Source of the DNA: Meiothermus cerbereus DSM 11376
GTDB taxonomy: Bacteria; Deinococcota; Deinococci; Deinococcales; Thermaceae
Reading direction: 5' to 3'
DNA: 64,000 nt
Assembly (NCBI RefSeq): GCF_000620065.1
Contig: NZ_JHVI01000004.1
Location: 1-64,000 of the forward strand
Numbering within the stretch: the first letter of the stretch is position 1; every line of letters starts with the position of its first letter. Shown piece after piece: positions 28,429-42,374 of this stretch. Position numbers and translations under genes: made by a program. Below the pieces are notes generated by a model. That model saw nothing but the letters and a program-made list of their open reading frames with translations, ran no database searches and was not told the DNA's origin.

Positions 28429-30351
28429 CTAACTCCCAACACGGTGGGCCAGCAAACGCAGACCAACCAACACCACGAAAACCGTACCCCCTTCGTGGGC
28501 CACCACCCCCATTGGCAGGGGTACCTTGCCGGCCAGGGCCAAGACCCCCACCACAACAATTACGCTAAGGGCAAAGCTTAGGTTGAAATAGACGGTACGG
28601 GCGGTGGCGCGGGCTAGTTGTTGGGCCCCCACCAGGCGGTTCAGGTCGTTTTTCATCAGCACCAGGTCGGCGCTCTCGAGCGAGACGTCGGAGCCTGCGG
28701 CCATCGAGACCCCCACGTCGGCGGCGTTTAGCGCGGGGGCATCGTTGAGGCCGTCGCCCACCATCACCACCGTGCCTTCCTGGCGCAGTTGTTTAATGCG
28801 CTCGAGCTTGTCCTCGGGCAAGAGCTCGGCATAAACCTCCTGGATGCCTACCTGCGCGGCGATGTGCTCGGCTACGGCTTTGCGGTCGCCGGTGAGCATG
28901 ATGACCCGTGCGTCCTGCCGTTTTAGCCTGGCAATGGCCTGGGCAGCCTCTGGGCGGGGGGTATCGGCCACGCCCAGCAAGGCCATGGGGTGGTGATCGA
29001 TTCCCAGTACGGCGGTGGTCAGGCCCCTATTCTCCATAGCCTGCAACTGGCGTTCGACCTGGGGCTTTAGGGCTACGCCCAGGCTTTCCAGCAGCCGCCG
29101 GTTGCCCACCCAGACCTGCCTACCATCGGCCAGGATCCCCACCACCCCATGGCCTCGCACGGCCCGTATCTCGCCGACCTCTGGGGTGGGGCCATCCCAG
29201 CTTTGGGCAATGGCCTGGGCGATGGGGTGCTCGCTGTAGCGCTCGATTCCGGCGGCCAGGGCCTTGGCTTCGGCTTCGGAGCCTTGCAGCACCTCTACCT
29301 GTACCAGTTTCATGCGCCCTTCGGTGAGGGTGCCGGTTTTGTCAAAAACGAAGATATTGGCTCTGGCCAGGGCTTCTAAAGCCGCCCCACTCTTGAATAA
29401 TGCCCCAGCTCGAGCCCCCGCAGCCATCGCCGATAACACCGCCGCCGGGGTAGCGATGACCACTGCACAGGGGCTGGCCACAACCAAAAAAGTCATGGCG
29501 CGGTACCAGGCCTGGGCAGCCTCGAGGCCAAAAACAAAGTGTGCTACTACAAAAACCACCGGAGCCGACAGCAACACGGCGATGGTGTAGGGGCCTTCAA
29601 AGCGTTCAGCAAAGCGCTCAGTGCGGCTTTTGCTAGCCTGGGCGCTTTCAACCAGCTTAATCAGTTTGGCCAGGGTGCTTTCGCTGGCGGGGCGTTCTAC
29701 CCGTACCCGCACCGCGCCGTGGCCGTTGAGGGTACCGCTTCTAACGTGGTCGCCAGGTTTTTTATCCACCGGAACGCTCTCGCCCGTAAGGGCACTCTCG
29801 TCTACATCGGTATAGCCTTCCAGCACAATGCCGTCGGCGGCAAAGCGCTCACCCGGGCGTACCACCAGGATGTCGCCCGGCAATAGGGCATCCAGCGGCT
29901 TCCAAAGCTCGCTACCATCTGGCAGCAGCACATTGGCTCCCTCGGGGTGGAGGGTCATGAGGGCCTCGATGGCCCGTCGCGTGCGGTTCATGGCCCAGCT
30001 TTGCAGGGCGTTGGAAAGGCTAAACAAAAAAAGCAGGATGGCCCCATCACCCGCCTGACCTACCGAGGCGGCCCCCAGCGCAGCTACTACCATCAGCAGA
30101 TCCACATCTAGCTTGCGCTGCTGAAAAAGGCTGTGCATGGCCTTGATGGCCGATGGAACCCCGCCTGCCAAAAAGGCCAGCGCCCACAGGCCGTTTCTTA
30201 GCCAGGATATTTCGTAGCTTTCTGCGACAAAACCTCCTACCAGGCCCAGCAGGGTAATACCGGCTAGTAAAAAGCCCCGTTTGACCTCGTGGTTCCAAAA
30301 CAAAAGCAAAGGGTTTTGTGTGGGTATGGAGGGTGTGATGGCAGTGCTCAT
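28429..30351 (-). CDS. P1B-4-type metal-exporting ATPase (Co/Fe/Zn group)
   Basis: 640 aa from ATG 30351 (MSTAITPS). P-type ATPase signatures are complete: DKTGT phosphorylation site, ATP-binding region and GDGLNDAPAL hinge. The metal-selective motifs are SPC (VVASPCAVVIATP) and HEGGT near the C terminus, which together define the P1B-4 subgroup (CoaT, CzcP, CtpD, PfeT). No N-terminal heavy-metal-binding domain is present, normal for this subgroup, whose members export Co2+, Zn2+ or Fe2+. A Fur/PerR-like palindrome lies about 40 bp upstream, which favours iron (PfeT-like) but does not prove it. The longer frame to 30450 crosses the palindrome and is rejected. Confidence 0.93.
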   Translation of the reverse strand: MSTAITPSIPTQNPLLLFWNHEVKRGFLLAGITLLGLVGGFVAESYEISWLRNGLWALAFLAGGVPSAIKAMHSLFQQRKLDVDLLMVVAALGAASVGQAGDGAILLFLFSLSNALQSWAMNRTRRAIEALMTLHPEGANVLLPDGSELWKPLDALLPGDILVVRPGERFAADGIVLEGYTDVDESALTGESVPVDKKPGDHVRSGTLNGHGAVRVRVERPASESTLAKLIKLVESAQASKSRTERFAERFEGPYTIAVLLSAPVVFVVAHFVFGLEAAQAWYRAMTFLVVASPCAVVIATPAAVLSAMAAGARAGALFKSGAALEALARANIFVFDKTGTLTEGRMKLVQVEVLQGSEAEAKALAAGIERYSEHPIAQAIAQSWDGPTPEVGEIRAVRGHGVVGILADGRQVWVGNRRLLESLGVALKPQVERQLQAMENRGLTTAVLGIDHHPMALLGVADTPRPEAAQAIARLKRQDARVIMLTGDRKAVAEHIAAQVGIQEVYAELLPEDKLERIKQLRQEGTVVMVGDGLNDAPALNAADVGVSMAAGSDVSLESADLVLMKNDLNRLVGAQQLARATARTVYFNLSFALSVIVVVGVLALAGKVPLPMGVVAHEGGTVFVVLVGLRLLAHRVGS

Positions 30352-30383
30352 CTGGTTTTCCTTTCTAGCATCTTGAACATATT

Positions 30384-30401
30384 GCAAATAATAATCATTA
30401 C
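30384..30401 (-). promoter_or_regulatory. Fur/PerR-like palindrome upstream of the metal ATPase
   Basis: The centre TAAT-C-ATTA (30392-30400) is a perfect 9-bp palindrome. The surrounding sequence matches 14 of 19 positions of the Fur box and most of the PerR box. It sits just downstream of a possible -35/-10 pair (TTGTAT, 17 bp, TATTAG, minus strand), where a bound repressor would block transcription. AT-rich context makes chance similarity possible. Confidence 0.45.
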
Positions 30402-30614
30402 TAATAAGAGTATCCCATATCAAATACAAAAGCCGCAACCCCAATTCCAACCAACTTAGTGCGGATTAGCCCTGTTCCGCACGCCAATTGTAGTGCTTCA
30501 GGGTAAGGACATTGGACACCTTTGGGCACAGGGCTCGATGGGCCAGGCCCTGCTCGAGGTCAGATAAACCAGGCCACCCCGGGGGTGTGCATATACTTGG
30601 GAAAGGTTACGGGC

Positions 30615-32056: not shown

Positions 32057-32647
32057 GTGCCAGTCATGATGGTTAAAATGCCAAGGTTTCTTTGCTGCTT
32101 GCTGCTTGGCCTGACCAGCCTGGTCTGGGCCCACGGGGGGCACTACCTGCCCGCTTCGGGGCCGGGGGCCACCGATTTCAAACCAGCCCGGACACTTCCA
32201 ACGGTGGAACTCCGCTCGCACGAGAACAAAGTGTTTGTATTTCCCCCTAAAGGCCCGGCGGTGGTGCTTTTTGGCTATACCCAGTGCCCGGATGCCTGCC
32301 CCCTCACGCTGGGCCGCCTGCTGCCTGCTTATGAAGCCCTGGGTGCACCGCCCAACCTTCAACTGCTGCTCTTGAGCGTGGACGAACGCGATACCCCTCA
32401 GATCCTGCAAAAATACCTGCGGGGTTTTTCCCCCGTCCAGGGGCTCACCGGCAAGCCCGAAGCCATTCGCCAGATTGCCGAGGCTGCCCGGGTCGAGTAC
32501 AACCTGGCGCCAGGCGGGCGGCTGGTCTTTCACACCGACGCTCTGGCCTTGCTGGATACCCAGGGCAAGTTGGTGCGGATGCTGTATGGGGCGAGCCGCC
32601 TTTCTACCGCTAAACTAAAAGAAGAAATAGCGCACTTGCTGAGGTGA
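32057..32647 (+). CDS. SCO1/SenC/PrrC-type copper chaperone
   Basis: 196 aa. A thioredoxin-fold, membrane-anchored or secreted protein with the copper-binding pair C-x3-C in CPDACP and the distal histidine in LVFHTDALALLD. The signal or anchor is FLCCLLLGLTSLVWA. SCO proteins deliver copper to the CuA site of cytochrome oxidase or to other extracytoplasmic copper enzymes. Here the next gene, with its start overlapping the SCO stop, encodes a copper-binding monooxygenase-like protein, the obvious client. A GTG start is chosen because of the leaderless promoter geometry. Confidence 0.9.
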   Translation: MPVMMVKMPRFLCCLLLGLTSLVWAHGGHYLPASGPGATDFKPARTLPTVELRSHENKVFVFPPKGPAVVLFGYTQCPDACPLTLGRLLPAYEALGAPPNLQLLLLSVDERDTPQILQKYLRGFSPVQGLTGKPEAIRQIAEAARVEYNLAPGGRLVFHTDALALLDTQGKLVRMLYGASRLSTAKLKEEIAHLLR

Positions 32648-34029
32648 ATATGCCGAGAATACCGCTGCTGTTGTTGGGTTTTCTAGCGTTGGGTTCGATG
32701 GGGGCGGGCCCGGCCCAGCCCCCTACCTACCACGGGGAGGTGGCCGAGATTCTGCAGGCCAACTGTGTGGGTTGTCATACCGAAGGCGGCATCGCGCCTT
32801 TTCCCCTGGACGATGCCCGCTGGGCGCACAATATGGCGGCGGCCATTGCCGACTCGGTCAAGCAGGGCCGGATGCCCCCCTGGCCCCCCGGTGAGGGTAC
32901 GCCTCCCCTCAAAGACGAACGCAAACTTTCTGCCAGTGCCAAGGCCGCGCTGATTGCCTGGGCCGAGGCCGGTGCGCCCCTGGGGAACCCCAGGCCCATT
33001 GCTGCCAAAGCCACGCCGCCCGCACCACAACCCGATCTGGTGGCTACGCTGAACCCCCCATACACACCCAACGATGCCCTTCTGGACGATTACCGCTGCT
33101 TTTTGATGCCCGCTACCTTCGACCGCGATACCTACCTGACCGGCTACAAGATTATTCCGGGTGACAAGCGCAGCGTGCACCACGTGATCCTGTTCCTGAT
33201 TGGCCCCGATATGGTAGAAGCCGCCCAGGCCAAGGACCGCGCCGAGCCAGGCCCCGGCTGGCAGTGCTTCGGTGGGCCGGGCTTGAGCGGCGATCCGCGC
33301 AACATTGGCGGTATTTTGGGTTTCTGGGTACCGGGTGGAGGGGCCACCATGCTGCCAGAGGGTACGGGGCGGCTTTTGCGGGCGGGTAGCCGGGTGGTGA
33401 TGCAGGTACACTACAACACCGCCTCGGGCGCCAACCCCGACGCCACCCAGATGGCTTTGTACCTAGCACCCAGGGGCGTCCAGCTCAAGCGGCTGGTGGG
33501 CATGACCCTGGCCGCCCCGGTGGAAATAAAGTGCCCGCCGGGTATGACGGGAGAACAGTGTACCCGTGCCTACGCTCGAGCCCGCACCGAGCTGGGCGTT
33601 ATCGCCGACTGGATTCACATGCTGTGCAACACGAGCATTGAGGGCTACCTGAACCGCGATATAGGCGATGGTAGCCGCCAGGCTACCTCCTGTGACTGGA
33701 CGGTCCAAAACGCCCTCGAGGTGTACGGGGTAACCGCGCACATGCACCTGCGGGGGGTGGAGTTTAAGGTGGAGGTCAACCCCGGTACGCCGGGCGCTCA
33801 GACGCTTTTCTACATCCCGCAGTGGAACTTCCAGTGGCAGGGCGAGTACTGGTACCAGACCCCCATCCGGCTGCGGCAGGGCGACCGGGTGCGGGTAACC
33901 TGTGTCTACGACAATAAATCGGCTATTCCCGGCCCCGGTGGGGAGCCTTTGCAGCCCCGCTATATGACCTGGGGGGAGGGTACGACCGACGAGATGTGCC
34001 TGGGCTCGCTGTTTGGGGTGCGGGAGTAG
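32644..34029 (+). CDS. Cytochrome c-copper monooxygenase fusion (PHM/DBM-like)
   Basis: 461 aa. Signal peptide (about 1-24), then a cytochrome c domain with CVGCH at 41-45 and a likely axial M77 (GRMPPWP), then a domain like peptidylglycine/dopamine beta-type copper monooxygenases. All copper ligands appear: H179-H180 (VHHV), H256 (QVHYN), H366 and H368 (AHMHLRG) and M451 (TTDEMC). Such enzymes hydroxylate C-H bonds using ascorbate as reductant; the attached haem domain could supply electrons instead. The substrate is unknown. GTG at 32644 overlaps the SCO gene stop by 4 bases; ATG 32650 is possible. Confidence 0.88.
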   Translation: MNMPRIPLLLLGFLALGSMGAGPAQPPTYHGEVAEILQANCVGCHTEGGIAPFPLDDARWAHNMAAAIADSVKQGRMPPWPPGEGTPPLKDERKLSASAKAALIAWAEAGAPLGNPRPIAAKATPPAPQPDLVATLNPPYTPNDALLDDYRCFLMPATFDRDTYLTGYKIIPGDKRSVHHVILFLIGPDMVEAAQAKDRAEPGPGWQCFGGPGLSGDPRNIGGILGFWVPGGGATMLPEGTGRLLRAGSRVVMQVHYNTASGANPDATQMALYLAPRGVQLKRLVGMTLAAPVEIKCPPGMTGEQCTRAYARARTELGVIADWIHMLCNTSIEGYLNRDIGDGSRQATSCDWTVQNALEVYGVTAHMHLRGVEFKVEVNPGTPGAQTLFYIPQWNFQWQGEYWYQTPIRLRQGDRVRVTCVYDNKSAIPGPGGEPLQPRYMTWGEGTTDEMCLGSLFGVRE

Positions 34030-34039
34030 GGGAGGGGGC

Positions 34040-34558
34040 ATGCGGTGCTGGGCGGTTATGCTGGTGGTGGCTGGAGCCGCTGGCCTGGCCCAGTCCAGCG
34101 ACCCGGCAGTGCTGGATCGCTGTCAGGCCATTTTCCAGACCCTGCGCCCCCAGTTTGCCTATGCCGAGCGGGCCGCGCCCCAGCGCTTCTTGGTACGGGT
34201 GGTGCTGGGGAGCGATGACTTTCCGGTAAGCCGCATAACGGTCAACATAGACCTGACCCCGGTTCCACTGGGACTTGAAGAGATCGCGGTGGTGGTGCTC
34301 GAGCGCCCGGTTCAGGATGCCGTGCGGCTGCGTAACCAGCTGGCCCGCCGCTTTGCGAATGTGCTGCAAAACATCAACCTGGGCAACTGGTATGTGGTGG
34401 AGCCCAGAGGGTATCGCTGCTTCCTGACCTTCCAGGGCCGGGTGGTGGGGGTGCTGGTGCTGGGAAGGAACCTCGAGCCCCTCTCCGACCCCCGCTGGCT
34501 GGCAGCCTACCAGCGCTCGCCGGTGCGCTTTCCGGCGGAGGAGCCGACGGTTCGTTAG
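34040..34558 (+). CDS. Secreted protein of unknown function
   Basis: 172 aa with a short signal peptide (MRCWAVMLVVAGAAGLAQ). I do not recognise a domain; the mature part is mixed alpha/beta with cysteines at DRCQA and YRCFLTF. GGGGAGGGGG precedes the ATG at 34040, 10 bases after the monooxygenase stop, so it belongs to the SCO-monooxygenase operon and may be an accessory protein. Confidence 0.68.
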   Translation: MRCWAVMLVVAGAAGLAQSSDPAVLDRCQAIFQTLRPQFAYAERAAPQRFLVRVVLGSDDFPVSRITVNIDLTPVPLGLEEIAVVVLERPVQDAVRLRNQLARRFANVLQNINLGNWYVVEPRGYRCFLTFQGRVVGVLVLGRNLEPLSDPRWLAAYQRSPVRFPAEEPTVR

Positions 34559-38613: not shown

Positions 38614-38633
38614 TCTAGGTACGTCTAGGTACG
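38614..38633. repeat. Two tandem 10-mers at the Doc/aminotransferase junction
   Basis: TCTAGGTACG occurs twice in a row; the second copy contains the Doc stop codon. It may mark the edge of an inserted segment. Confidence 0.5.
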
Positions 38634-39527
38634 TCCGAGACGTCTCAAAAGCTTGCTGTAGCTGGCTATAAAGTAATCAATTGCAGGTTCGTCACCATAA
38701 AATTGTGATGCATCTATGCCCTGGTCAGGAGATAATCCGCAGGCTTTCCTTAGTTCCTTTATTTGATTTATATTTATTGGCCTTTTTTCTCCACCGCACG
38801 ATAAAGTATAAACTCTGACGCATTCTGTGGTTTCGATTTTTCTCAGCCCAAACCACCCCCTCGGCTCGTAGGAAGTCTTCTTCTTGAGAATATGGTAACT
38901 CACGCCATTGCCATGCTCAATTTCTATATCGAATTTCTTGAGCAGTTTTCGAAGCTCTCGAAGAGTAACTTCTCGATCATAGTTTTTCACTTGGTGAGTG
39001 TTCCTTCTTAACCACGCAGCCAAACAATATACTTCAATGTCGTTGCTACCCAACTTCTGCGGGTTTTTTATGTATGGGGTTATTTTTCTGGGTAACTGAA
39101 GGGTTTTTTGATATTGGTAGTGTCTGTCAAAGTCAGCAATTGCCCATTTTGACACTTCAGCAACTTTATGTATTTCATGAGAGGCAAGTTTTACGAACAA
39201 ATCAAATAGTGTGTCTTGGGGGACGTTTTTCAGCCTCAGGCCGTTTTTATCTAAATGTGAGAGCATAGATACCAGAGCAGTTCTTTTGTTCCCATTGTAG
39301 AAGCAATGATTCATGCACAGTCCATATGTCAGTGTTGCGGCTGATAGATACTCGTCGTAATATTTGTAGTCGTTGCCAGAACCGATAAATTGCCTATTGA
39401 CCGCGGACTCTAGTAACCCTATGTCACGGACGCCCGGAGGACTGATTGGATCGTCAGTCTCTGCAAATTCGCGAACTAGGGCGTTGTGAATAAGCTGGAT
39501 ATCTTCGAGGCTTAGAAATTTTGGCAT
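38625..39527 (-). CDS. Doc/Fic-type toxin with HicA-like C-terminal domain
   Basis: 300 aa, markedly AT-rich and with codon use unlike its neighbours, so probably acquired by transfer. Residues 1-140 are a Doc (death-on-curing) domain: the Fic-fold motif reads H74-x-F76-xx-G79-N80-K81-R82, with the Doc-type NKR rather than Fic NGR. Doc phosphorylates EF-Tu. Residues 186-268 resemble HicA mRNA interferases: LRELRKLLKKF, then a histidine in GVSYHILKK, and later IKELRKACGLS like the HicA end. No antitoxin gene lies on either side. The frame open to 40046 is antisense to addA; ATG 39527 (MPKFLSLEDIQL) is the real start. Confidence 0.82.
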   Translation of the reverse strand: MPKFLSLEDIQLIHNALVREFAETDDPISPPGVRDIGLLESAVNRQFIGSGNDYKYYDEYLSAATLTYGLCMNHCFYNGNKRTALVSMLSHLDKNGLRLKNVPQDTLFDLFVKLASHEIHKVAEVSKWAIADFDRHYQYQKTLQLPRKITPYIKNPQKLGSNDIEVYCLAAWLRRNTHQVKNYDREVTLRELRKLLKKFDIEIEHGNGVSYHILKKKTSYEPRGWFGLRKIETTECVRVYTLSCGGEKRPININQIKELRKACGLSPDQGIDASQFYGDEPAIDYFIASYSKLLRRLGRT

Positions 39528-39626
39528 GCTTAGTTCCTCGATATAAATGACCGTTGTTATTATAATGCGCTCTGCTTGGCTTATTTTTTGAACACAATCT
39601 CTTGCGAATAAATACACATCTATACT

Positions 39627-42374
39627 ATGAAAGTCCGTGTCGCCTCCGCCGGAACCGGCAAGACTGCCAGCCTGGTCTTGCGCTACCTCGAGCTTATCGC
39701 TTCGGGTACGCCCCTGCGCCGCATCGCGGGGGTAACCTTCACCCGCAAGGCCGCCGACGAGCTGCGCGTACGGGTGGGCTGGGCTATCGAGGAAGTCCTG
39801 ACCCACGGGCGACACCTGGACTTTGTGGCTTCGTCGGGCGCAACCGAAGCCTTTAGGGAGGCCATGCGCGAACTCCCCGGGGCCACCCTCAGCACCATCC
39901 ACGGCTTTATGGGCCAGTGCCTGCGCCTGGCGGCCCCGCTTTTGCACCTCGACCCCGACTTTTCCCTGCTGGGCGACTGGGAAGCGGTGGCCCTGTTCGA
40001 AGAGGAGTGGAAGACCCTTCGCTACTTGGCCCAGGATCCCGACCATCCGTTACATGGCCTGGTCTCCGACGAGCTTACCGAGCCCCTGCTGCACCTTTTT
40101 TCTAAGCGCTCCTTAGCCGAGGTGTTCGAGCCTGCCGAGGGCGAGGCCAACCAGAAGTTGTTGCGGGTCTACCAGACCCTTTACGCCGCCTACGAAGCCC
40201 GTCTGGGGGCCAACCTGCTCTCGCCTGCCGAGCTCGAGCGCAGGGCTTTGGAGCTGACGCGCCACCCAGGGGCGATTAAGCGCGTTTTAGAACGGGTGCA
40301 GATACTGCTGGTAGACGAGTATCAGGATGTAAACCCCCTACAAGGGGCCTTTTTTGCCGCTCTCGAGCGGGCCGGTCTGTCCATCGAAATCGTGGGCGAC
40401 CCCAAGCAGTCCATCTATGCTTTTCGCAATGCCGATGTGGCCGTCTTTCGCAAGGCCCTGCAGGAAGGCCAGCTCCACCCCCCCCTGACCCGCACCTACC
40501 GGCACAGCCAGGTTCTGGTGCGTTTTTTGAACCGGCTGACCGCGCACCTGGCGGCCCACGGCATGGGCTTTAGCCCCGAGGAAGCCCCGCCGGTGGAAGG
40601 GCAGCGGCCCGAAAAAGGGCGGCTGGAGATTCACTGGGTGGCGGGCAGAGCACCTCTCGAAGAGCTACGCAGGCAGGAGGCCTGGGTGCTGGCCCAGCGG
40701 CTTCGGGAGCTTGGTGCTTCCATCGAGTACAGCAAGATGGCTGTGCTGGTGCGTTCTTACAGCAGTGTGCCTTTTTTGCAAGAGGCTTTTGCGGCAGCCC
40801 AGATCCCCTATGTGCTCCTGCAGGGGCGGGGCTACTACGAGCGGCAGGAGGTGCGCGACCTGTACCACGCCCTGCGGGCGGCCCTCGACCCCCGGGGCGT
40901 CTCGTTGGCGGTTTTTCTACGCAGTCCTTTTGGTCAGCACACCGAGGATGGGCCCCTCAAGCCCCTCGAGCTGGCCCAGATTGAAAGCGTGCTGCGCGCC
41001 GACGACCCCTTGCGCAGCCTGGCCCAGCACTGGCCCAGCATCTACCAGCGTCTGAGCCAGATTCAAACCCGCCTGCGGCTGGAAGCCCCGCTCGAGGCGC
41101 TCAAATTCCTCATTCGCGAGCCCCTGATGGCGGGCCGACCCTACCACGACTTTTTGGATCCGCGCGCCCGCGAGAATGTGGATGCGCTGCTCTTCTACTT
41201 TGCCCCCCGCCCGCCGCAGAACCTCGAGGGCCTGCTGGAGCGGCTCGAGCTGCTCTCGCGCCAGGCCGATGCGGGCGACGTGCCCCAGTCGGGGGAGGGG
41301 GTGCAGATTCTGACCATCCACCGTGCCAAAGGTCTGGAATGGCCGCTGGTAGCGGTATTCGACCTGGGGAGAAGGAATACGCACCAGTCCCAGCCCCTCT
41401 ACCTGGGCGCGGCCCAGGAGATGGCCCGCACCGACCGGCTGACCCAGTGGGTGGCCCTGCCAGTAACCCCCCAGTTTGAGGCCTTCAAAGAGCAGGTGAA
41501 GCGGTTGGAGGAAGAGGAGAGCTATCGTTTGTTGTACGTGGCGGCCTCGCGGGCCCGCGACACCCTGCTGCTCACGGCCAGCGCCAGCGAAGGCCAGCCC
41601 GAAGGCTGGGGCAAGGTGCTCGAGGCTTTAGAACTGGGCCCGGCCAGCAAGCCCTTCGATGGGCCCCAGTTCCTCCTGCAAACCTGGCCCTACCAGCCGG
41701 TGCCGCCCGCGCCCGCCTTTAGCCCCCCCGCGCCCCTTCAGGCTTCGCCCTGGGTAGATGCCTGCTTCGAGCCCGAGCCCTTTCCTCCGCTTTTTTCGCC
41801 CTCGGCTTTGAAGCGCCTCGAGGCCGAGCCCTTGCCCCTGCCCGACCCCGAGGAAGGGGAGGCCCTGCCGGGCCGGGCGCGGGCCATCGGCACCCTCGTA
41901 CACTACGCCATTGGGCACGACTGGAGTCCCGACAATCCCGCGCATCTTGCCAACCTCGAGGCCCAGGAGGTGATGTTCCCCTACGGCCCGGGCGAGCGCG
42001 AAGGCATCATGGCCGAGGTGAAAGCGCTGCTGCAAAACTACCACCAACTTCTGGGTTATCGGCTGCCCTGGCCCCGCGACGAAGACTACCCCGAGTTTGC
42101 GGTGGCCCTGCCCCTGGGCTCTACGGTCTGGCAGGGGGTGATTGACCGTTTGTACCGGGTGGGGGAACAGTGGTATCTGGAAGACTACAAAACCGACCTC
42201 GAGGTCAGGCCCGAGCGCTACCACTTCCAGCTAGGAATCTACCTGGTTGCCATTCGCCAGGCCTGGAAAATCGAGCCGGAGGTGCGGCTGGTGTACCTGC
42301 GCTTTGGTGAGGTGCTGAGGCTTGACAAAGCTGTGCTGGAGGCAGCTCTGAACGAGATTATGTCGTCTACCTAG
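39627..42374 (+). CDS. addA: AddA-type helicase-nuclease (UvrD-like)
   Basis: 915 aa. Superfamily 1A helicase motifs: Walker A SAGTGKT (7-13), VTFTRKAADEL, motif II LLVDEYQDV, GDPKQSIYAFR, motif V/VI QILTIHRAKGLEW and LLYVAASRARDTL. The C-terminal RecB-type nuclease is intact: D840 (GVIDRL), D853 and K855 (DYKTD). Together with AddB it processes double-strand breaks. It is shorter than Bacillus AddA (about 1230 aa). TATACT directly abuts the ATG, too close for a leaderless start, so the promoter is uncertain. Foreign DNA (the Doc gene) lies immediately upstream. Confidence 0.92.
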   Translation: MKVRVASAGTGKTASLVLRYLELIASGTPLRRIAGVTFTRKAADELRVRVGWAIEEVLTHGRHLDFVASSGATEAFREAMRELPGATLSTIHGFMGQCLRLAAPLLHLDPDFSLLGDWEAVALFEEEWKTLRYLAQDPDHPLHGLVSDELTEPLLHLFSKRSLAEVFEPAEGEANQKLLRVYQTLYAAYEARLGANLLSPAELERRALELTRHPGAIKRVLERVQILLVDEYQDVNPLQGAFFAALERAGLSIEIVGDPKQSIYAFRNADVAVFRKALQEGQLHPPLTRTYRHSQVLVRFLNRLTAHLAAHGMGFSPEEAPPVEGQRPEKGRLEIHWVAGRAPLEELRRQEAWVLAQRLRELGASIEYSKMAVLVRSYSSVPFLQEAFAAAQIPYVLLQGRGYYERQEVRDLYHALRAALDPRGVSLAVFLRSPFGQHTEDGPLKPLELAQIESVLRADDPLRSLAQHWPSIYQRLSQIQTRLRLEAPLEALKFLIREPLMAGRPYHDFLDPRARENVDALLFYFAPRPPQNLEGLLERLELLSRQADAGDVPQSGEGVQILTIHRAKGLEWPLVAVFDLGRRNTHQSQPLYLGAAQEMARTDRLTQWVALPVTPQFEAFKEQVKRLEEEESYRLLYVAASRARDTLLLTASASEGQPEGWGKVLEALELGPASKPFDGPQFLLQTWPYQPVPPAPAFSPPAPLQASPWVDACFEPEPFPPLFSPSALKRLEAEPLPLPDPEEGEALPGRARAIGTLVHYAIGHDWSPDNPAHLANLEAQEVMFPYGPGEREGIMAEVKALLQNYHQLLGYRLPWPRDEDYPEFAVALPLGSTVWQGVIDRLYRVGEQWYLEDYKTDLEVRPERYHFQLGIYLVAIRQAWKIEPEVRLVYLRFGEVLRLDKAVLEAALNEIMSST

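Follow-up and report, generated by a model that had tools for sequence, protein, structure and literature searches.

Textbook chemistry of the PHM/DBM copper monooxygenases, a kind of enzyme that serves hormone synthesis in animals, is ascorbate-driven and relies on two copper sites that lie ~11 Å apart. In PHM (PDB 1sdw, 1phm, 6ala), these sites are set in a two-jelly-roll fold with six copper ligands, a QxHY motif and core cysteines. DBH (PDB 4zel) carries an additional N-terminal domain, DOMON, ahead of its copper core. SCO1/SenC proteins, marked by the PF02630 fold with a CxxxC motif and a histidine, are copper chaperones for cytochrome oxidase. The table of a 2020 review places PHM and DBM under eukaryotic copper proteins only (PMC7435645).

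A different way of feeding a copper enzyme is described for Cellvibrio japonicus, in which Cbp2D combines a YceI (X158) domain of the ubiquinone-8-binding kind with c-type cytochromes (PMC8981238; review PMC10154616). One of its cytochrome domains is described as reducing bacterial copper LPMOs of the AA10 type and as starting cellulose oxidation (PMC8981238).

Here we analysed a stretch of 64,000 nucleotides from Meiothermus cerbereus DSM 11376 (the window), in which a gene for an SCO protein is followed by a gene that fuses a c-type cytochrome module to a PHM/DBM-type copper domain. The fusion shares with PHM the fold, the six ligands, the QxHY motif and the core cysteines, but it lacks the peptide anchors, carries a four-cysteine insert and a tethered cytochrome, and is bacterial, with no lyase partner seen. 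DBH is the closest structural match (Z 22.1) and likewise has an extra domain before the copper core; in the window protein, however, this partner is a c-type cytochrome, and the two share 14% identity. As with Cbp2D, a cytochrome c would serve an extracellular copper monooxygenase, and YceI domains recur, yet the Cellvibrio donor and its oxygenase are two distinct proteins, the oxygenase being an LPMO with an unrelated copper fold, whereas some relatives described here hold YceI, cytochrome and PHM-like domain in one chain. The SCO protein of the window has diverged from the oxidase chaperones and is tied to a PHM-like gene instead of an oxidase gene, with two other SCO genes in the genome. 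The fold and its ligands are already known; what is new is a haem donor built in or encoded nearby, together with the variant that adds YceI and an SCO of its own. Domain databases may already contain this architecture; in the open-access full-text library searched, no description of a bacterial fusion of cytochrome c with PHM turned up.

Organisation of the locus

The features of the locus are as follows.

32057..32647, + strand: SCO gene (ORF list; Pfam PF02630)
Within its product: SCO1/SenC-type protein with CPDAC (CxxxC) at residues 77-81 and His159; signal peptide present
32644..34029, + strand: cytochrome c - PHM/DBM-type copper monooxygenase fusion gene (ORF; Pfam; profile; predicted structure)
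32713..32997, + strand: c-type cytochrome module, residues 24-118, of the 'CxxCH-GGIAPF...MPPW' type (PF13442)
32764..32778, + strand: haem-binding motif CVGCH, residues 41-45 (sequence)
32872..32874, + strand: Met77 within MPPW, predicted to be the distal ligand of the haem
33178..33183, + strand: His179-His180, predicted as two CuH ligands (PHM H107, H108; PHM alignment)
33409..33411, + strand: His256 of QVHY, predicted third CuH ligand (PHM H172; PHM alignment)
33514..33693, + strand: insert bearing four additional cysteines (C297, C306, C328, C350), placed between the jelly rolls
33739..33747, + strand: His366 and His368 of HMH, predicted CuM ligands (PHM H242, H244; PHM alignment)
33994..33996, + strand: Met451 of DEMCL, predicted CuM ligand (PHM M314; PHM alignment)
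34040-34558: small secreted alpha/beta protein with two conserved cysteines (start probably 34040, not 34013), adjoining an AddB-like nuclease gene

The fusion protein comprises 461 residues if translation starts from the GTG at 32644, or 459 residues from the ATG at 32650. The ATG is the likelier start, having GAGGTGA just 5' of it. The initial annotation described the SCO gene as overlapping the fusion; both reading frames are indeed present on the + strand, but the overlap follows only from taking the GTG as start. The N-terminus of the fusion reads as an apparent export signal.

The copper domain

One scan of GTDB species returned at least 319 bacterial relatives of the fusion, the best 80 of which were kept. 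They span Meiothermus, Calidithermus, Deinococcales, Bipolaricaulota/Acetothermia, Chloroflexi, Actinobacteria, Gemmatimonadetes, myxobacteria and others. A tree was built by a quick method from all 81 sequences, and the structure alignment A2 comprises 56 of the 81; the sequences left out were mainly Nocardioides that nearly duplicate one another and rows whose N-termini are doubtful. At the 80 loci, gene calls based on base composition were noisy and mixed with antisense reading frames, and for this reason the argument below is built on Pfam-confirmed neighbours. A phage or virus origin of the fusion was dropped, as the scan of viral_contigs contained no relative of it.

In Pfam, Cu2_monoox_C (PF03712) matches the fusion with E 1.5e-5 (25 bits, cut-off 23), and Cu2_monooxygen (PF01082) with E 2.7e-4, its 21.6 bits falling below the cut-off of 30; two of the nine relatives scanned (L055, L060) exceed both cut-offs. 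Because the Pfam score alone stays under the cut-off, the N-terminal copper domain was additionally checked by family profile and structure. Searching the PDB with the single fusion sequence gave nothing useful, whereas a family profile of 56 relatives matched the solved chains of PHM (E 6e-12) and DBH (E 4.5e-9), bringing the six ligands into register with the HH, QVHY, HTH (HxH in the family) and DEM of PHM. The AlphaFold2 model (pLDDT 89.9, pTM 0.86) superimposes in VIA on DBH 4zel with Z 22.1 (rmsd 3.4 Å, 301 aligned) and on PHM 6ala with Z 21.9 (2.7 Å, 257 aligned). Unrelated folds come next, PNGase F among them, with Z of about 8-9. Foldseek gives E 3.7e-14 for the same model.

H179, H180, H256, H366, H368 and M451 are identical in 81/81 sequences, that is, in the window protein and the best 80 of the at least 319 relatives. 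As the search patterns contained MQVHYN and DDYxCFL, conservation of H256 and of the DDYxCFL stretch arises partly by selection; the other five ligands lay outside the patterns. Equally invariant (81/81) are the core cysteines C152, C208, C420 and C452, which align to what we take to be the pairs of the two core disulfides of PHM. Apart from those of the haem motif, the fusion contains eight cysteines, four of them within the insert, which is present in 67/81 rows, including Calidithermus and Bipolaricaulota relatives, and absent from 14 rows of a myxobacterial-type clade. Judged by sequence and predicted structure, the copper part of the fusion is a complete PHM/DBM-type double jelly-roll with an intact predicted dicopper ligand set. 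This agrees with the initial annotation, which had read a PHM/DBM fold with all six ligands: the full pattern recurs in every homologue aligned, and no other fold emerged from the profile searches.

The cytochrome module and its association with the copper domain

The N-terminal part of the fusion matches Cytochrome_CBB3 (PF13442) with E 4.1e-7, above the cut-off, and its CVGCH motif marks it as a putative c-type cytochrome module, with Met77 as the likely distal haem ligand. C41, C44, H45 and Met77 are invariant in the 45/45 module rows (the window and 44 loci); these rows were chosen for the presence of CxxCH. We used this motif-based number, the column count of 47/81 for the haem cysteine being inflated, probably through misaligned N-termini.

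Among the best 80 of the at least 319 relatives, 44 loci encode CxxCH in the same chain and five have the module in a nearby gene. For 27 PHM-like loci the module is absent from the fetched flanks; the rest are three loci cut by contig ends and one YceI-type row without the haem motif. Most of the module-less loci (25) fall into one actinobacterial clade of the tree, mostly Nocardioides, with two others besides, and the module is absent genome-wide in all ten Nocardioides genomes searched. Given these 27 loci and ten genomes, members of the family can do without the haem. The cytochrome-less form of Nocardioides (loci among L059-L094) sits at a conserved site amid housekeeping genes, apparently HrcA, DnaJ, PhoH, YbeY and Era as judged by eye. 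At L053 (7329-9257), a YceI-PHM protein keeps MPPW and misses the CxxCH half of the module, which reflects either decay or an assembly error.

A search of 111 Deinococcota genomes, in which up to 15 candidates were scored per genome so that more distant copies may be missed, found at least 30 PHM-like genes in 18 genomes. All 30 among the matches listed are accompanied by the module, 22 as fusions and 8 through a separate gene close by on the same strand, and most of these pairs were re-read. L111 and L039 denote one place, at which a single gene separates the module gene from the PHM-like gene; in G069 the reading frame of the module is broken close to the end of a contig. The split-gene rows form a single group in the quick tree (support 88), which suggests one fission, after which both genes would have stayed together. 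The association also holds in the reverse direction: in seven genomes, 19 of 21 module matches sit with a Cu2_monoox_C domain, the two that do not being in Sorangium, and strong module matches in the Deinococcota genomes searched occur only beside PHM. Gene association thus strongly supports a coupling of haem and copper, and the haem partner proposed in the initial annotation proves to be a persistent one.

The SCO partner

The SCO protein matches SCO1-SenC (PF02630) with E 7e-20 (71.8 bits, cut-off 22.8) and keeps the CxxxC motif and the histidine. The source genome encodes three SCO proteins in all, this one included. Across 50 genomes of the family, close orthologues (at least 54% identity) occur in nine, every time beside the fused gene, and all other SCOs reach at most 44% identity to it. 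This distribution indicates that the SCO is a divergent, dedicated partner of the fused gene, limited to Meiothermus and one sister genus. Nine of the 11 fused-gene genomes in the family possess it; among the 50, it is absent from two Calidithermus with the fusion, from two split-form genomes and from all others. An SCO as general partner of the family was rejected beyond these two genera, a small home-made profile placing one beside homologues at 4/80 loci, all Meiothermus.

In the window, the SCO and fusion genes are inserted between a SpoIID-like gene and the gene for the small secreted protein. Two Meiothermus genomes, G008 and G021, lack the pair; in both, these flanking genes directly adjoin each other, and the SCO and fusion therefore appear to have been gained or lost there as a pair. 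From such co-inheritance we infer that the SCO loads copper or keeps the copper site reduced. A Meiothermus-genus genome (G014:C3, L015 1501-1611) retains ~40 C-terminal residues of the fused gene without the rest, probably a relic.

The small secreted protein had been noted in the initial annotation as following the fusion, and a role for it in the system is not supported. Matches to it occur in 45 of the 50 family genomes, weak in the Thermus-like ones, and seven of the 18 genomes with a strong match (E at most 1e-33) have no fused gene. It persists in genomes without the SCO-fusion pair, where the flanking genes adjoin, and was rejected as a member of the system; it is a mere neighbour. A survey of the genes around homologues had been proposed at the outset, and its outcome was mixed: the cytochrome is persistent and the SCO recurs in Meiothermus and the sister genus, but the downstream protein drops out. 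It matches no Pfam family, and its model (pLDDT 82.8) finds no PDB match (best E 0.042 in Foldseek, best Z 3.2 in VIA).

YceI fusions and redox neighbours

Pfam detects YceI (PF04264) ahead of the cytochrome in three relatives (L037, L044, L058), and YceI-like N-termini were recognised by sequence alone in L048, L051 and L053. The single chains of YceI, cytochrome and PHM in L044, L037 and L058 belong to a Thermoflexus-named MAG, a Vicinamibacteraceae MAG and an actinobacterial MAG, respectively. Such a protein would possibly constitute a complete quinol-to-copper chain. Since the Cbp2D cytochrome is described as reducing LPMOs, a haem c as donor to a secreted copper monooxygenase has precedent.

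At two Bipolaricaulota loci (L024 129-3206, L025 5763-10989), a cupredoxin and a sulfite-oxidase-like molybdopterin oxidoreductase are encoded downstream of the fusion, which is likewise a redox setting. Both cupredoxins and the L024 oxidoreductase were identified by Pfam, the L025 oxidoreductase by sequence. A two-component system lies directly upstream in Bipolaricaulota L025 and in Calidithermus L022.

Proposed mechanism and alternatives

Our preferred reading, held with reasonable though not high confidence, is that the fusion is an exported two-copper hydroxylase in which the tethered haem c replaces ascorbate as reductant and the SCO handles copper. Reduced cytochrome c or the respiratory quinol/cytochrome pool would pass single electrons to the haem, which would in turn reduce CuH, while CuM would bind O2 and hydroxylate a C-H substrate; the adjacent SCO would load copper or keep the copper site reduced. 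Hydroxylase activity, the direction of electron flow, copper delivery by the SCO and the substrate class are inferred here from anatomy, association and precedent, and it is the fused cytochrome that suggests an electron donor other than ascorbate. Whether this extends to a whole class seems to us evenly balanced: such a class would comprise widespread bacterial PHM/DBM-type hydroxylases wired into the respiratory chain, ascorbate-free and in their fullest form made of YceI, haem c and dicopper domain, to which the Meiothermus SCO would add dedicated copper loading.

Electrons might instead run the other way or have another use: the copper domain would oxidise Cu(I) or a substrate, and the haem would carry electrons out to the respiratory chain. 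The Bipolaricaulota loci fit such a flow, as the molybdoenzyme found there with the fusion and cupredoxin is of a kind that normally yields electrons, and c-type cytochrome modules of similar size are frequently electron acceptors from a fused catalytic domain. To our knowledge, however, the PHM/DBM fold with the full ligand set is linked only to reductant-consuming hydroxylation. The closest functional parallel, Cbp2D, is also described as donating electrons to copper (PMC8981238), and we consider the reverse flow unlikely. A non-catalytic role in copper binding, storage or sensing, with the fold kept and both SCO and haem serving copper handling, would suit the SCO gene adjoining the fusion, the two-component systems upstream in some relatives and the lack of a recognisable substrate pathway nearby in the window. 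Storage would not need the two sites, with the methionine that belongs to the O2 site, to be invariant across phyla in 81/81 sequences, nor does it sit easily with the persistent coupling to an electron carrier, which makes this role quite improbable. The part of the SCO is a separate matter. With four disulfides to be sorted from the eight non-haem cysteines, half of them in the insert, and with the SCO fold being thioredoxin-like, it might act as a thiol-disulfide enzyme and not as copper donor, a role compatible with the exported hydroxylase. Relatives in Calidithermus and Bipolaricaulota have the cysteine insert with no SCO found at their loci, and we regard this role as possible but doubtful.

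The fold and ligands would also allow a genuine PHM, one that amidates secreted peptides extended by glycine. We take Arg240, Asn316 and Tyr318 of PHM to be the anchors of the peptide carboxylate; at the aligned positions, Arg occurs in 0/81, Asn in 0/81 and Tyr in 6/81 sequences, and none of the three is found in the window protein. In addition, ten family members were scanned with Pfam, and none showed a lyase (PAL) domain. Amidation is accordingly a very remote prospect, and with the peptide anchors missing, we describe the fusion as having a PHM-like fold and not as a peptidylglycine enzyme. Its chemistry is probably PHM-like, and the C-terminal glycine of a peptide is an improbable substrate for it. 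No substrate pathway was recognised near the fusion within the window, and the neighbours examined bear no sign of a catecholamine pathway. The YceI fusions hint weakly at lipids or quinones, although YceI may bind just the electron donor. The myxobacterial genomes hold expanded sets of Cu2_monoox_C domains, 13 in Polyangium (L078; 7 with the cytochrome module) and 9 in Sorangium (L093; 6 with the module), which suggests many substrates.

A tethered haem offers a spectroscopic handle on the sequential supply of single electrons to the two copper sites. With at least 319 bacterial relatives, and a built-in c-type cytochrome in 44 of the 80 kept, this question becomes testable. Thermophilic versions may, moreover, make robust catalysts for C-H hydroxylation.

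Other genes of the window

On the - strand, the reading frame at 38625-40046 contains a Fic/DOC domain (E 2.3e-10) and is possibly a toxin-type or AMPylating protein. A few kb upstream of the SCO-fusion pair, a heavy-metal P-type ATPase is encoded at 28429-30450 (- strand), with best NCBIfam matches of the Zn/Cd type.
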